Assembly (NCBI GenBank): GCA_021789895.1
Contig: JAJYIU010000023.1
Coordinates: forward strand, 1 to 64,000
Source of the DNA: Acidobacteriota bacterium
Lineage (GTDB): Bacteria > Acidobacteriota > Terriglobia > Terriglobales > SCQP01
Length of the DNA: 64,000 nucleotides
Direction: 5' to 3'
The notes under the pieces were generated by a model. It worked only from the letters and a program-made list of their open reading frames with translations, searched no databases and was not told the DNA's origin. This document shows, piece after piece, positions 2,674 to 17,072 of this stretch. The translations under genes and the position numbers were made by a program. The stretch's first letter is position 1. Every line of letters starts with the position of its first letter.

Positions 2674-3951
2674 TTAGCCGGCTTTTTCCATCGCCTGGAG
2701 CGCGACCTCGCGCTTTTTGACCATTTCGCGCGTGACCGCGAACTCGCGCACCCGCTTTTGCGCGGGCAGGTTGTACATCAGGTCGAGCATCAGCTCTTCC
2801 AGGATCATGCGCAACCCGCGGGCGCCGACCTTGCGCGCCAGCGCCTCCAGCGCGATCTCCTCGAGGGCGTCGTCTTCGAAGCGCAGCTTGACGTTTTCGA
2901 ACTCGAACAGCTTCTGGTACTGGCGCACCAGCGCGTTGCGCGGCCGGGTGAGGATCTGAATCAGCGCGGGCTTATCCAGATCGTCGAGCACACCGATGAC
3001 CGGGAGGCGGCCGATGAATTCCGGAATCAGGCCGGCCTTGATCAAGTCGGCAGGCTGCACGTGGTTGAGCAATTCGGTGTCGCGCAAGCCCTGGGCGGCG
3101 ATTTGCTGGGCATCGCCCTCATCGGAGCGGAAGCCGACCGAGCGGCGGCCGAGGCGGCGGGCGATGATTTTTTCCAGCCCGACGAAGGCGCCGCCGCAGA
3201 TGAAGAGGATGTTGGTGGTATCCACCGGGGTAAATTCCTGGTGGGGGTGCTTGCGGCCGCCCTGCGGCGGGACGTGGGCGAGGGTGCCTTCGAGGATTTT
3301 GAGCAGCGCCTGCTGCACCCCTTCGCCGCTGACGTCGCGGGTGATGGAGGGGTTCTCGTCGCGCTTGGCGATCTTGTCTATTTCGTCAATGTAGATGATG
3401 CCCTGCTGGGCGCGGGCCACGTCGCCATCGGCGGCCTGGAGCAGCTTGAGGATGACGTTTTCCACGTCTTCGCCGACGTAGCCGGCTTCGGTAAGGGTGG
3501 TGGCGTCGGCCAGGGCGAAGGGCACGTCGAGCATCTTGGCCAGGGTTTGCGCCAGCAAGGTCTTGCCGGTGCCGGTGGGGCCGATGAGCAGGATATTGGA
3601 TTTCTGCAGTTCGACTTCGTTGCTGCCGGCCGGGCGCGAGCGGTTCATGTGCAGCCGCTTGTAATGGTTATAGACGGCGACCGCCAGCTTCTTTTTGGTG
3701 CGGTCCTGGCCGATGACATAGTCATCGAGGAACGCCTTGACCTCATGCGGCTTGGGCAACTGGGTCAGGCCGGGCGAGGCCGGTTCCAGCCGGTCGTCTT
3801 CCAGGATGGAATTGCAGACCGCCACGCACTCGTCGCAGATGTAGGCGCGCGGGTATTCGTTCGGGCTGGAAATCAGCTTGGCGACCGCGTCCTGGCTCTT
3901 ATGGCAGAACGAACAGCGCAGCACTTCTTCTTGGCCATTCTTGCTTCGCAC
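2674..3951 (-). CDS. clpX: ATP-dependent Clp protease ATP-binding subunit ClpX
   Basis: Hexameric AAA+ unfoldase that feeds substrates to ClpP. The N-terminus has the four-Cys zinc-binding domain (CSFCHK near the start, then CDECVAVC), followed by Walker A GPTGTGKT, Walker [10 protein letters not shown], the GYVGEDVE pore region and the arginine finger/sensor region ending in [12 protein letters not shown] assign the GTG at 3951, which gives 425 aa, matching the usual ~424 aa; the frame stays open upstream to 4131, but that part is low-complexity and unlike ClpX. A purine-rich AAGGGG lies upstream of the GTG. Gene order with clpP and lon is the common bacterial one. About 216 bp separate it from clpP, so it may have its own promoter. 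Confidence 0.95.
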
Positions 3952-4144
3952 GTTGAACCCCTTCGGGGCTGGGGGGAGGCCCCCGGTCCGCGACGCCACA
4001 CTTGCCTTTGCCGCGGCCGATTGCCGCCGGACTCCCGGGACCTGTTGCTCCGGGAACAAATGCCGGCGCCAGCCTAAACTGCCATGCCCGGCCCTTCCCT
4101 GCACATCTGGAAGCGGCTCGGGCCTGCCCACCGATCCACACCGG

Positions 4145-9728: not shown

Positions 9729-11051
9729 TCATTCGTAGCGCAAAGTCTCGGCGGGCGGGACCTGGACGGCGCGCTGCGAAGGATACAGCGTCGCCAGCAG
9801 ACCGATGCCCAGGCTGAGCGCGGACACTTCCACGCCGGCCAGCCAGCCGGCGTGGAAGGGGACATAGCTGATCGAATAAACCGCGGCGGAGACGTGAATC
9901 CACTGATAGCGGTTGGCGGCCCAAGCCAGGAGGAAGGCGGCGAACAGGCCGGCGGCGGTGCCAATCAGGTCAAGCAGCATGCCCTGCAGAATAAAGATGC
10001 GGCGGATCTGGCGGCGCCGGGCGCCGAGCCCGAGCAGGATGGCGATTTCGCGCCGTTTTTCCATCACCAGCATGGTGAGCAGGATGAGGACATTCAAGCC
10101 GGCGACGAAGACGATCAGGCCGATCAGCAACACCGTGCCCAGGCGTTCCAGACTGAGCGCTTGAAACACGGCCTGGTTTTGCGACATCCAGGTCACCGCG
10201 ACGAAATCCGGCCCGGCGGCTCGTTCCGCTCGCCGGGCCACCTGGGGGGCGGCGTAGATATCGTCCAGCCGGAATTCGATGACGCTGGCGCGGTCGCGGC
10301 CGCCGGCCGCGACCGGATGCAAGTTTTGCGCCGCCTGCAGGCTGGTATAGGCCCAACTGGAATCGAAGTCGGCGAAGCCGGAACGAAAGATGCCGGCCAC
10401 GCGGAAAGGGGTGGTGCGGCCGACGTAGCCGAGCGGGGTCAGCACCGCCTGGGGAACGTAAACCTCGACCCAATCGCCGACGTTGACCTGGAGGCGGTTA
10501 GCCAGCTCGCCGCCGAGCAGCAGGTTGGGCGCGCGCGGATGGCCGGCCAGGACGCGCCATCCGCCTTGCCTGACGCGGCTGAGGAGCGAGCCGACGCGCA
10601 GCTCTTCGGCCGGCAGCACGCCCTTGAGCGTCACCTGGGCGGCGCGATTGCCATGGCTGAGCAGGACGCTGTCGTAGAAGGCCGGCGCCAGCGCCACCAC
10701 ATGCGGCAGGCGGCGGAGACGGCGCATGAGGGCGCGGTAATGCGTGAACGCCGCGGGCTCGCGGCGCAGCAGGTTGATTTGGGCGCTGGCGCCGACGAGT
10801 TCATTCTGCAGCGCGTCGCGAAAGCCATCCATGACCGCGAGCGAGAGAATGAGCGCCGCCACGCCGGCGGCGAAAGCCAGCACCGCAATCGCCGCCACTA
10901 CGGAGATTAGGCCGCGGCCGCGCCGGGGGCGCAGATAGCGCCAGGCGATAAAGAATTCCAAGCCCAGGGGGCGGGGCCGGCTGACGCCGCGGCCGCCGCC
11001 GGCGGGCGGGAGGACGGCCGGCTTTTGCTCCGGCCGGTTTTCTGCTGGCAT
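9729..11051 (-). CDS. LolC/LolE-type lipoprotein-releasing permease (FtsX-like)
   Basis: Inner-membrane permease of the ABC family that releases lipoproteins from the inner membrane. With the ATG at 11051 (MPAENRPEQ) the product is 440 aa, begins its first membrane helix after EFFIAWRYLRPRRGRG, has a large periplasmic MacB-like domain (~60-280), and three further helices containing MVMEKRREIAILLGLGARRR, the usual FtsX/LolC cytoplasmic loop. The open frame continues to 11285 but would run through the promoter of the divergent gene. Only one permease is present, so it may act as a homodimer. The divergent neighbour carries a LolD-like ATPase, its probable partner. LolC and LolE cannot be told apart here. 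Confidence 0.88.
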   Translation of the reverse strand: MPAENRPEQKPAVLPPAGGGRGVSRPRPLGLEFFIAWRYLRPRRGRGLISVVAAIAVLAFAAGVAALILSLAVMDGFRDALQNELVGASAQINLLRREPAAFTHYRALMRRLRRLPHVVALAPAFYDSVLLSHGNRAAQVTLKGVLPAEELRVGSLLSRVRQGGWRVLAGHPRAPNLLLGGELANRLQVNVGDWVEVYVPQAVLTPLGYVGRTTPFRVAGIFRSGFADFDSSWAYTSLQAAQNLHPVAAGGRDRASVIEFRLDDIYAAPQVARRAERAAGPDFVAVTWMSQNQAVFQALSLERLGTVLLIGLIVFVAGLNVLILLTMLVMEKRREIAILLGLGARRRQIRRIFILQGMLLDLIGTAAGLFAAFLLAWAANRYQWIHVSAAVYSISYVPFHAGWLAGVEVSALSLGIGLLATLYPSQRAVQVPPAETLRYE

Positions 11052-11117
11052 ACTAATAAAGAGGGTAGCGGAGGCCGCCGGTTTTTGCAGCCGGCGTTCC
11101 GCCGGAGGCCAAGCGCG

Positions 11118-12359
11118 ATGTTCGACCGCTTTACCGAATCCGCGCGGCGGGTCGTATTTTACGCCCGCTACGAGGCCAGCGAGCTTGGCGGCGATGCGAT
11201 CGCGGCCGAGCACCTGCTGCTCGGCATTCTGCGGGAAGACCCAGCCCTGATCCAGCGCTATCTGCCCTCGCCGGCCGCCAGGCAAGCGCTGCGCGCGGAA
11301 ATACGCCGCCCGGCGGGACGCAACGGGAAGTCAACCACCGCCGCGGATATGCCGCTCAGCCCGGAAGCACGCCAGGCGCTGGGTTACGCCGCCGAGGAGG
11401 CCGAGCGGCGCGGCGATCCGCACATCGGCCCCGAACAGCTCTTGCGGGGGTTGCAGCGCGAGGAGACCGGATTTACGGCGGACCTGCTACGCCGTTATGG
11501 AGCGCCAGCAAACGCCACGCCCGCGGCGGACGGCGGCGGCGCGGAGGCGGCGAGCGCCGGCCAGGCGAGGGACAAAAACAGAATCCAAGCGGCGGCGGCA
11601 GCATCGAATCAAGCAGAGGCCGCCGGCGGCAACGACGGCGCCGGCGGAGGGGGCGAAGGACTGCGCGCGGTGGGGATCAGCAAGCGCTATGCCGCCGGCG
11701 GGCAGGAACTGCAGGTTTTGAGCGGCATCCATCTGGAACTGGGGATGGGCGAGATGGTGGCGGTGGTGGGGGAATCGGGCTGCGGCAAAAGTACGCTGCT
11801 GCACGTATTAAGCACGCTGGACACACCGACGGAAGGTGCCGTATACTTCGCCGCAAGTTGTTTGAGCCGCATGGGGAGCGATCAATTGGCGGAGTTCCGC
11901 AACCGGGAGATCGGATTCGTCTGGCAGATGCCGCACCTGCTACCGGAATTCACGTTATTGGAGAATGTGATGCTGCCGCGAATGATCGCCGGCGAGACGG
12001 CGGCGGCGGCGGCGCGCCAGGCGGCGGCGCGGCTGGAAGAAGTGGGGCTGGAGCGGCGCGGCACGCACCGCGCCGGCGAGCTATCGGGGGGAGAACAGCA
12101 GCGGGGCGCGCTGGCGCGGGCGCTGGTGATGCAGCCGCGGCTGCTCATGGCGGATGAACCCACCGGCAACCTGGATGAAGCCACCGCCGAACGGGTATTC
12201 GCGCTGCTGGTGGAGATGCACCGGCGACACGGGCTGACCACGCTACTGGTGACACACAACCTGCAGTTCGCCCGGCGCTGCGATCGCGTCTGGCGGCTGC
12301 ACCAGGGGAAGTTGGAGCGGCTCGATACGGCTTTCCCCGGCCCATCCGAGGCGAGCTAA
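11118..12359 (+). CDS. Fusion of Clp N-terminal domain and LolD-like ABC ATPase
   Basis: A 413-aa protein of two parts. Residues 1-~140 are a double Clp N (R) domain: MFDRFTESARRVVFYARYEAS and [20 protein letters not shown] are close to the start of the ClpC encoded next door. After an Ala/Gly-rich linker (~140-185) comes a complete ABC ATPase of the LolD/MacB type: Walker A GESGCGKST, Q-loop region FVWQMPHLLPEFTLLENV, signature LSGGEQQRGALARAL, Walker B LLMADEPTGNLD and H-loop LLVTHN. I take the ATG at 11118 because it starts exactly at the Clp N homology. It is divergent from the Lol permease, so it probably powers that permease. The Clp N part could bind substrate or adaptor proteins; this is inference. 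Confidence 0.9.
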   Translation: MFDRFTESARRVVFYARYEASELGGDAIAAEHLLLGILREDPALIQRYLPSPAARQALRAEIRRPAGRNGKSTTAADMPLSPEARQALGYAAEEAERRGDPHIGPEQLLRGLQREETGFTADLLRRYGAPANATPAADGGGAEAASAGQARDKNRIQAAAAASNQAEAAGGNDGAGGGGEGLRAVGISKRYAAGGQELQVLSGIHLELGMGEMVAVVGESGCGKSTLLHVLSTLDTPTEGAVYFAASCLSRMGSDQLAEFRNREIGFVWQMPHLLPEFTLLENVMLPRMIAGETAAAAARQAAARLEEVGLERRGTHRAGELSGGEQQRGALARALVMQPRLLMADEPTGNLDEATAERVFALLVEMHRRHGLTTLLVTHNLQFARRCDRVWRLHQGKLERLDTAFPGPSEAS

Positions 12360-12406: not shown

Positions 12407-14851
12407 ATGTTCGATCGTTACACCGAAAAAGCCCGGCGGGTGATCTTTTTCGCCCGCTACGAAGCCAGCCAATGCGGCAGCAACAGCATCGAGACGGAAC
12501 ACATCCTGCTGGGGCTGCTGCGCGAAGACAAATCGCTGACCAACCGCTTTCTGCGCTCGCACGCCACCATCGAATCCATCCGCAAAGAGATCGAAAGCCG
12601 CACCACGCCGCGCGAAAAGGTATCCACTTCGGTGGATCTGCCGCTGAGCCAAGAATCGCGCCGGGTGCTGAATTATGCCGCGGAAGAGGCGGAGCGGCTC
12701 AGCCACAAGCACGTCGGCACCGAGCACCTGCTGCTGGGGCTGCTGCGCGAGGAGCGCTGCTTCGCCGCCGAGATGCTGCAAAGCCGCGGGCTGCGCCTGG
12801 CCGCGGTGAGAGAGGAACTGCAGCGCACGGTGCAGGAAAAGAGCGCGCGGCCGAAGGAAGCCAGCCTGTTGTCGGAATTCAGCCGCGACCTAACCCAGTC
12901 GGCGCTCGACAGCCAGCTCGATCCGCTGGTGGGCCGGGAAAACGAACTGGAGCGCGTGATCCAGATTCTCTGCCGGCGCACCAAGAACAATCCCGTGCTG
13001 ATCGGCGAGCCGGGGGTGGGCAAGACCGCGATCGTCGAGGGCCTGGCGCAGCGCATCGCGGAAAGCGAGGTGCCCAGCTTCCTGGCCGAGAAGCGCATTT
13101 TGGCGCTGGACCTGTCGCTGATCGTCGCCGGCACCAAGTACCGCGGGCAATTCGAAGAGCGGCTGAAGACGATCATGAAGGAGTTGATGGACAACCCCAA
13201 CATCATCATCTTCATTGACGAGTTGCACACGCTGGTGGGCGCCGGCTCGGCGGAAGGCTCGCTCGACGCCGCCAATATCCTCAAGCCGGCGCTGTCGCGG
13301 GGCGAGGTGCAGTGCATCGGCGCCACCACCCCGGCGGAGTACCGCAAAAGCATCGAGCGCGACCGCTCGCTGGAGCGCCGCTTCCAGGCGGTCAAGGTGC
13401 CGCCGCCGGACGAAGACGAGGCGCTGGAAGTGCTGCAGGGCATCAAGGAGCGCTACGAGAAATTCCACGCGGTCAGCTACAGCGACGAGGCGCTGCGCTA
13501 CGCGGTGCTGCACTCCAGCCGCTACATTCCCGACCGTTTCCTGCCCGACAAGGCGATTGACCTGCTCGACGAGGCGGGGGCGCGGGTGAAGCTGCGGCAG
13601 AGTTCGGTGCCGGAAGAGGTAGCGGAGGTGCAGCGGCGGCTGAAGGTGATCATCCACCGCATGGAAGCCGCCATCGCCAGCCACGAATTCGAGAAAGCGC
13701 GCTATTACTCCGACGAGGAGCGCAAGGAGCGGGAAAACATCCGCGCGCTGCACGACAAGTATCACCTGGACGACGCCAGCGGCGCGCAGGTCACGCGCGG
13801 GGATATCGAAGACGTGGTTTCGCGCTGGACCGGCGTGCCGGTCAGCTCGGTCAAAGAAGAGGAGATGCAGAAGCTGCTGCGCATCGAGGAAGAGCTGCAC
13901 AAGCGCATCGTCAGCCAGGAAAAGGCGATTTCGGCGCTGGCGCGCGCCATCCGGCGCAGCCGCGCGGGGCTGAAAAATCCCAACCGCCCGGTGGGCTCAT
14001 TCCTCTTCCTCGGCCCCACCGGCGTGGGCAAGACCGAAGTGGCGCGCACGCTGGCGATTTTTCTCTTCGGCAGCGACAAGGCGCTGGTGCGCTTCGACAT
14101 GTCCGAATTCATGGAAAAACACTCGGTCTCCAAGCTGATCGGCTCGCCGCCGGGTTATGTCGGCTACGAAGAAGGCGGGCAGTTGACCGAACGGGTCAAA
14201 CGCGCTCCCTACAGCGTGGTGCTGCTGGACGAGATCGAGAAGGCGCATCCCGACATATTCAACGTGCTGCTGCAGGTTTTCGAAGACGGCCACCTGACCG
14301 ACGGGCTGGGCAACCAGGTGGATTTCAAAAACACGATCATCGTCATGACCTCGAACATCGGCGCCCGCTACCTGGAAAAGCGCAGCCAACTGGGCTTCCA
14401 GTCGCCCAGCGGCGAACAGGCCAACGCCAAGATCGAAGACCTGGTGCGGGGCGAGGTCAAGCGGCTGTTCAACCCCGAGTTTCTCAACCGTCTGGACGAA
14501 ATCATCCTCTTCAACGCCCTCAGCGACGACGATCTGCTGCAGGTGATCGAGATGCTGATCCAGCAGCTCAACCAGCACCTGGGCCAGAAGGGAGTGAGCA
14601 TCACCGCCACGCAGGAGGCGAAGCGCTGGATTCTGGAAAAGACCTGCGCCGACCGCTCCTACGGGGCGCGGCCGCTGCGGCGCGCGCTGCAGAAGTACAT
14701 CGAAGATCCGCTTTCCGACCTGCTGCTGCAGGGGGCCATCAGCCAGCCGGCGTTCATCGAGGTGTTCCTCGAAAACGACAGCCTCTATTACCGCCCGGTG
14801 TCTTCGCAGCCGGATGCCGCGCAACAGGAACCGATGCTGCTGACGCGGTGA
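12407..14851 (+). CDS. clpC: ClpC-type AAA+ unfoldase
   Basis: Class I Hsp100 unfoldase that partners ClpP. In 814 aa it has a double Clp N domain (1-~145), AAA domain 1 with Walker [10 protein letters not shown] and Walker [11 protein letters not shown], a UVR-type middle segment ([20 protein letters not shown]), AAA domain 2 with GPTGVGKTE, pore loop [13 protein letters not shown], Walker [11 protein letters not shown] and arginine finger [11 protein letters not shown], and sensor 2 GARPLRR. The tripeptide LGF in [12 protein letters not shown] sits where the ClpP-docking loop is found. It starts 47 bp after the Clp N-ABC fusion, likely in one operon, and overlaps the next gene by 4 bp (GTGA). 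Confidence 0.95.
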
Positions 14852-15846: not shown

Positions 15847-16013
15847 TACCGAGGCGGCAAGCAGCGATGCTTCCGCCGTTACTCCCTTAAGATTCCATGA
15901 AAGGCCGCAGCGGCGGCGGGGGATACCCTGAATCCCGCCGCGCGGGCGAGGGCGCGAGCGCCAGGTTTGAATCGAATCCGCCGGCTGCAACATCCCATGA
16001 CCAGAGTGAGGTC

Positions 16014-17072
16014 ATGGCTATGTCCTGCGCCGCACGAATGGTATTGAATCCGCAACGCCGCAGCCTGGCGGCGGAAAAGCTGATGCAGGATTTACACACC
16101 CGCGTCGTCGGGCAGGATGGCGCGCTGGCGCGGATCGTGGATGCGTATCAGATGTACCTCGCCGGGCTGGCCTCCAGCCGCCGCCCGATCGCCAGCTTTC
16201 TGCTGCTGGGCCCCACCGGCACCGGCAAGACGCGCGTGGTGGAAGCGCTGGCGGATTGCCTGTTCGGCAATCCGCGCGCGGTCATCAAAGTGGATTGCGC
16301 CGAATTCCAGCACAGCCATGAAATCGCCAAGCTGATCGGCTCGCCGCCGGGTTATCTGGGCCATCGGGAAACGCATCCGGTGCTCTCGCAGCAGGCGCTG
16401 GACGAGCACCAGACGCCGGAAACGCCGCTCAGCCTGGTGCTGTTCGACGAAGTCGAAAAGGCATCCGACGCTTTATGGCAACTGCTGCTAGGGGTGCTGG
16501 ACCAGGCCTCGCTGACGCTGGGGGACAACCGCAAAGTGGATTTTTCCCGCTGCCTGATCTTCCTCACCAGCAACCTGGGCGCGGCGGAGATGCAAAAGCT
16601 GCTCGATCCCAGTTTCGGCTTCGCCTCCGCGACGCCGCCGGCCTCGGTGCAGGACCGCATGACCCAGGCGGCGATCGTCGCCGCGCGGCGCAAGTTTTCG
16701 CCGGAATTTTTCAACCGCCTCGATCACGTGCTGGTCTTTCATCCGCTGGATGCGGCGCAACTCGAAGCCATTCTCGACCTGGAGCTGGAGCAGGTGCGGG
16801 CGCGGCTGGCGCATCCGGCCACTCCGCTGCCCGGCGGCGCCGCGCCGCGGTTCCAGTTCCGCTGCACGCCGGCGGCGCGGAAATTCCTGCTGGCGGCCGG
16901 CACCGACGCGCGCTATGGGGCGCGGCCGCTGAAGCGGGTGATCGAGCGCTCGCTGGTGATGCCGCTGGCCAGCCTGCTGGCGACCGGGCAGATCAGCGAG
17001 CAAGACCGGATCGCGGTGGACGTCAACAGCGAGGGCGACGGGCTGGGATTTTTCCGCGAAACCACAGCCTAA
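16014..17072 (+). CDS. ClpB/ClpC-like AAA+ ATPase with a single (D2-type) domain
   Basis: A 352-aa AAA+ ATPase corresponding to only the second ATPase module of ClpB/ClpC. Motifs in order: Walker A GPTGTGKT, pore loop GSPPGYLGH, Walker B LVLFDEVEKA, sensor 1 IFLTSNLG, arginine finger FSPEFFNRLD, sensor 2 YGARPLKR. No N-domain, D1 or middle domain is present. I prefer the ATG at 16014 (MAMSCAARMVLNPQRR); the frame is open back to 15897. A GF tripeptide (DPSFGFAS) sits where ClpC has its ClpP-docking LGF. The function is unknown: a Clp-type unfoldase, a regulator of ClpC, or a decayed paralogue that keeps all catalytic motifs. It ends 26 bp from the convergent redox operon. Confidence 0.85.
   Translation: MAMSCAARMVLNPQRRSLAAEKLMQDLHTRVVGQDGALARIVDAYQMYLAGLASSRRPIASFLLLGPTGTGKTRVVEALADCLFGNPRAVIKVDCAEFQHSHEIAKLIGSPPGYLGHRETHPVLSQQALDEHQTPETPLSLVLFDEVEKASDALWQLLLGVLDQASLTLGDNRKVDFSRCLIFLTSNLGAAEMQKLLDPSFGFASATPPASVQDRMTQAAIVAARRKFSPEFFNRLDHVLVFHPLDAAQLEAILDLELEQVRARLAHPATPLPGGAAPRFQFRCTPAARKFLLAAGTDARYGARPLKRVIERSLVMPLASLLATGQISEQDRIAVDVNSEGDGLGFFRETTA

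Follow-up and report, generated by a model that had tools for sequence, protein, structure and literature searches.

The window, a 64,000-nucleotide stretch from the genome of an Acidobacteriota bacterium, contains an open reading frame in which a ClpC-type N domain is joined to a LolD-like ABC ATPase. The features of the locus are as follows:

9729 to 11051, minus strand: lolC/E-type permease (TIGR02212), divergent from the fusion
11101 to 11117, plus strand: leader of the fusion, with GGAGG
11118 to 12359, plus strand: Clp_N-LolD fusion ORF, 413 aa; ATG at 11118, stop ending at 12359
11118 to 11501, plus strand: ClpC-type double Clp_N domain, residues 1-128 (Pfam, phmmer, AlphaFold2, Foldseek)
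11502 to 11657, plus strand: Ala/Gly-rich linker, residues 129-180 (~50 residues)
11658 to 12359, plus strand: LolD-like ABC ATPase, complete; residues 181-413 and stop codon
11670 to 11672, plus strand: in-frame GTG with AAGGA upstream, candidate internal start of the fusion ORF
12407 to 14851, plus strand: clpC-type AAA+ unfoldase with two Clp_N repeats and two AAA+ modules

The sequence-only reading had described an uninterrupted frame at 11118-12359 encoding a ClpC-like double N domain and a full ABC ATPase; its coordinates are exact, and Pfam and phmmer agree with it. A GGAGG lies 9 nt upstream of the ATG. The linker is 58% Ala+Gly, and in its second half it is similar to the N-terminal extension of the stand-alone lolD found in the single other genome of the genus (the congener). 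The in-frame GTG is a candidate start from which a LolD without the Clp domain may possibly be made. As the same reading had stated, clpC begins 47 bp downstream of the fusion, and no terminator-like site was found between the two genes. About 1 kb after clpC lies a ClpA/ClpB/ClpC-like ORF (15897-17072, plus strand) with one second-kind AAA+ module and D2-small; it has neither an N domain nor D1, and the congener has a match at the same place (L137:10669-11613).

In a BLASTN comparison, the fusion leader (2e-21) and the linker's second half (2e-4) both aligned with the congener's lolC-lolD interval, and the two flanks of the domain are therefore in their native place. Homology supports the Clp_N frame to about residue 128, and homology to the congener's lolD supports the LolD frame from about residue 153; residues 129-152 alone have no such support for their frame. 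Both shifted frames of the linker are free of stop codons for more than 70 codons, and a single indel would therefore not yield two clean genes.

The N domain was matched by Pfam to PF02861 (Clp_N; 48.9 bits against a cut-off of 20.7, the stretch matched being repeat 2), and a phmmer search of the PDB aligned residues 1-132 to ClpC N-domains across both Clp repeats (best E 1.2e-18). AlphaFold2 modelling covered the N domain only (residues 1-151, pTM 0.74), as the N domains came out misaligned when fusion, LolD and ClpC sequences were aligned together; Foldseek assigned the model to the ClpC1 N-domain with a probability of 1.00. Both repeats were covered by phmmer and by Foldseek alike, and the model, itself fairly confident, shows the ClpC N-domain fold. 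About seven helices are predicted, the last helix of repeat 2 being replaced by the linker, and the TEH motifs are changed to AEH and PEQ. Phe2, Thr6, Glu31, Arg85 and Glu106 are retained in the alignment; with positions numbered in this way, they would match the groove Phe, the phosphoarginine-pocket Thr and Glu, and the basic residue of ClpC. The roles of the E32/E106 pockets, T7, K85 and the groove have been described for ClpC (PMC12583610), as has that of F2 in its N-domain (PMC10030653); the corresponding ClpC positions lie in the hydrophobic groove and in the phosphoarginine pockets, and contribute to keeping the resting state (PMC12583610, PMC10030653). In contrast to its counterpart in ClpC, the domain sits on an ABC ATPase and not on AAA+ rings: no AAA+ unfoldase domain in 11118-12359 reaches the Pfam cut-off, so that the product lacks the two AAA+ modules of a ClpC unfoldase. 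Clp_N was found in three proteins of the genome, namely the fusion, clpC and one further Clp ATPase on another contig (C19).

The C-terminal part scored 109.6 bits to PF00005 (ABC_tran), and residues 186-400 matched E. coli LolD in the PDB with an E value of 1.5e-62, E. coli LolD chains being the closest solved relatives. Walker A, Q-loop, signature, Walker B and H-loop are all present, and the motifs are complete (GESGCGKST, LSGGEQQR, LLMADEP, VTHN). The best NCBIfam match is TIGR02211, for which the fusion is the top ORF of the genome (262 bits; next ORF 232); it lies below the curated cut-off of 307.75 bits, which was reached in only 1 of 14 control genomes, and is accordingly filed as LolD-like. 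The divergent LolC/E permease claimed beside it was also found: the ORF at 9729-11051 scored 292 bits to TIGR02212, the next in the genome 75, and it is the only clear lolCE match of this genome, although it too falls below the curated cut-off (362), as most control genomes do. A LolD-like ATPase is thus encoded together with a LolC/E permease, as is LolD of LolCDE, from which the fusion differs by the extra 180 N-terminal residues of Clp_N domain and linker. These matches suggest that the ABC part still acts as a lipoprotein-export ATPase; LolD redundancy in the genome is possible, since paralogous ATPases score not far lower. In the ABC signature region (12081-12125), whose sequence is LSGGEQQRGALARAL, a Gly stands at a position that is mostly Val in the other LolD sequences of the alignment; the congener has the same residue.

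Clp_N was absent from lolD in all 13 other family genomes examined, the congener included; two of the 13 are 54% and 73% complete. Where a family lolD was found, it starts at the ABC part or bears an unrelated short extension. Among the matches listed for 396 phylum and 397 order genomes, evenly drawn, no second fusion appeared and LolD alone was recovered; a fusion would score well above LolD alone and rank first among such matches. Two apparent fusions in the phylum (G217 and G072) proved false, the adjacent lolC frame having been misaligned to the N domain. The collection searched covers roughly half of all known species, and on present evidence the fusion is confined to one genome. The sequence-only reading had proposed that separate genes in relatives would point to a frame error or a single-strain oddity. 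The relatives do carry lolD and clpC apart and without the extra domain, and the congener, whose ABC part is 88% identical to that of the fusion, lives without it; a frame error is not the cause, and the single-genome oddity stands for now.

The neighbourhood itself is widespread (L149-L168, L009-L030). Among 20 phylum loci, sampled as strong LolD matches across Acidobacteriota, clpC lies downstream of lolD in 18, within 1 kb in 16; it also lies downstream in nearly all order loci, and with few exceptions lolC stands ahead of lolD or faces it. In a further set of lolD loci, mostly from other phyla (L031-L107), where some contigs are short, a clpC match beside lolD was seen only in L040, which belongs to Acidobacteriota. 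The literature searched makes no mention of a lolD-clpC linkage. As lolD and clpC are long-standing neighbours, their fusion would be mechanically easy, and by gene-fusion logic it hints at a functional link.

The N domain had been described as very similar to that of the adjacent ClpC and explained as a locally duplicated 5' end of clpC. The similarity turned out to be modest: 67 of 128 residues (52%) are identical, and every ClpC sampled from the order and family lies about as near to the domain (66-70 of 128). A ClpC-type origin stands, and two details agree with a local one. Asp3 is common to the fusion domain and the ClpC of its own genus, Glu3 being found in every other ClpC sampled; and the leader GCCGGAGGCCAAG resembles GCCGGGGCCAAG, located directly before clpC, in 12 of 13 bases (p ~0.01-0.02), a match that is suggestive only. 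Against it are the low identity, the open tree and the age of the split. The branch of the fusion domain is 1.7 changes per site long, and the AU test permits several positions for it. Codon branch lengths place the divergence of the domain from ClpC at more than about 2 neutral units, compared to ~0.8 since the congener split; the former split is the older, and a recent local duplication is therefore disfavoured. A recent duplication followed by neutral drift or positive selection would need a branch of ~0.8 neutral units, at a penalty of ~15-22 lnL, given a common neutral rate. Both an old local duplication with clean loss in the congener and the capture of a diverged Clp_N gene, or of one from an unsampled donor, fit the data.

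No decayed copy of the domain was detected in the congener's DNA (score 115; null mean 89, maximum 150), where simulated neutral decay would score about 255 or more. The N-terminus of the congener's lolD (MSRDRYPEAARR...) was considered as a relic of the domain and rejected, protein similarity being at chance level (p 0.43). About 480 bp separate lolC and lolD in the congener (L009:1052-1530), a distance not much different from the size of the Clp_N segment that is absent there; this interval is no decayed copy of that segment, and it holds a 128-aa ORF (1043-1429) with no similarity to the Clp_N domain. Two genomes of another genus of the family contain short stand-alone Clp_N ORFs, one apparently whole (148 aa; G007, L138:1090-1536, minus strand) and one broken by a stop codon (G010, L139, about 3709-4086, minus strand); they are 41-43% identical to the fusion domain and are possibly ClpC2-like proteins.

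Selection on the domain was estimated by a two-ratio codon model (own script; 128 codons, eight sequences). Omega was 0.20-0.23 on the fusion domain branch versus 0.031 for ClpC, a constraint about 7-fold weaker, and omega = 1 was rejected on three topologies (2dlnL 19.0, 22.8 and 25.2). The domain has been under purifying selection since it separated from ClpC; as there is no second fusion for comparison, this selection may predate the fusion and have acted in another gene.

The explanation that we tentatively prefer, as a possibility and not a probability, is that of a working LolD whose tethered ClpC-type domain recruits clients of ClpC, adaptors or even ClpC to the lipoprotein-release complex. 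Two LolD copies are expected in such a complex. Two fusion chains would thus serve it, each with its Clp N domain facing the cytoplasm; on their flexible linkers these domains would hold ClpC-type clients, adaptors or ClpC, and ClpCP could thereby work beside the Lol complex, either turning over the complex or jammed lipoproteins or controlling their quality. Recruitment by the N domain is the least certain step, plausible because the phosphoarginine-pocket Glu and Thr are retained and the lolD-clpC linkage is conserved. We counted in favour the architecture, the position of the best LolD by the only clear lolCE, the omega value, the ligand-site residues, the clpC linkage and the lack of a terminator; against it count the occurrence in one genome only, a congener that does without the domain, the lost helix of repeat 2, the altered TEH motifs and the missed TIGR02211 and TIGR02212 cut-offs. 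ClpS was not found in the genome in a search whose control worked, and a ClpS-family adaptor is therefore an unlikely ligand; in the search for McsB the control was silent.

It is also conceivable, if somewhat unlikely, that a Clp_N segment became joined to lolD, has no selected role and is tolerated because LolD is undisturbed by an extension that a flexible linker holds at its N-terminus. The fusion is present in one of the two genus genomes and one of the 14 family genomes examined, N-terminal extensions of lolD vary freely across the family, and no trace of the domain is left in the congener, where neutral decay would still be detectable. Such a passenger would, however, have to keep a long intact frame with an omega of ~0.2 and retain its fold and ligand residues; it requires a young event and a donor that had itself diverged under selection beforehand, and the genome shows no gene of that kind.

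A decoy function, in which the tethered domain and ClpC compete for the same clients, adaptors or ClpC-targeting peptides, appears decidedly unlikely. Its precedent is mycobacterial ClpC2, a non-ATPase Clp_N protein and partial ClpC homologue that acts as a sponge and repressor, titrating cyclomarin and slowing casein degradation by ClpC1 (PMC10030653); retention of the groove Phe2 and the position directly before clpC would suit this role. The abundance of the fusion would, on the other hand, be capped at that of a membrane transporter ATPase. ClpC2 resembles the fusion in carrying a ClpC-type N domain outside an unfoldase, but it has its own N-terminal dimerisation domain, regulates its own promoter and has no ABC ATPase (PMC10030653), whereas in the fusion Clp_N starts at residue 1 and no dimerisation domain precedes it.

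More improbable still is intramolecular regulation of the LolD ATPase or of LolC coupling by a Clp_N fold that no longer receives Clp clients. Regulatory accessory domains are common on ABC ATPases, and both the constraint, weaker than on ClpC, and the lost helix would be in line with such a role; the known accessory domains of this kind are, however, mostly C-terminal, and the known ligand-site residues are conserved although this reading does not require them. Frame error and chimeric assembly are unlikely, and the probability that either merged two separate genes is very small: the genome is a draft in 79 contigs, the linker is GC-rich and no second genome has the fusion, but leader and linker are homologous to the congener's interval, a domain 52% identical to clpC is no mis-assembled copy of it, and shifted frames yield no clean separate ORF.

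Clp_N-LolD is a genuine gene fusion and a new domain architecture assembled from known domains. The literature searched yielded nothing relevant to a Clp_N-ABC architecture or to a LolD-ClpC link, and nothing that connects lipoprotein export to the cytosolic Clp protease system. Besides mycobacterial ClpC2, the fusion is a further example of a ClpC N domain that is not part of an unfoldase, and, occurring within a phylum-wide lolD-clpC neighbourhood, it is a gene-fusion clue to an interaction of the two systems. In its broadest form, which we consider unlikely, this would mean that one species has turned into a covalent bond a physical or functional link between the Lol complex and the ClpCP protease, a link to which the conserved neighbourhood points in all Acidobacteriota, and that ClpC surveys or regulates lipoprotein export.
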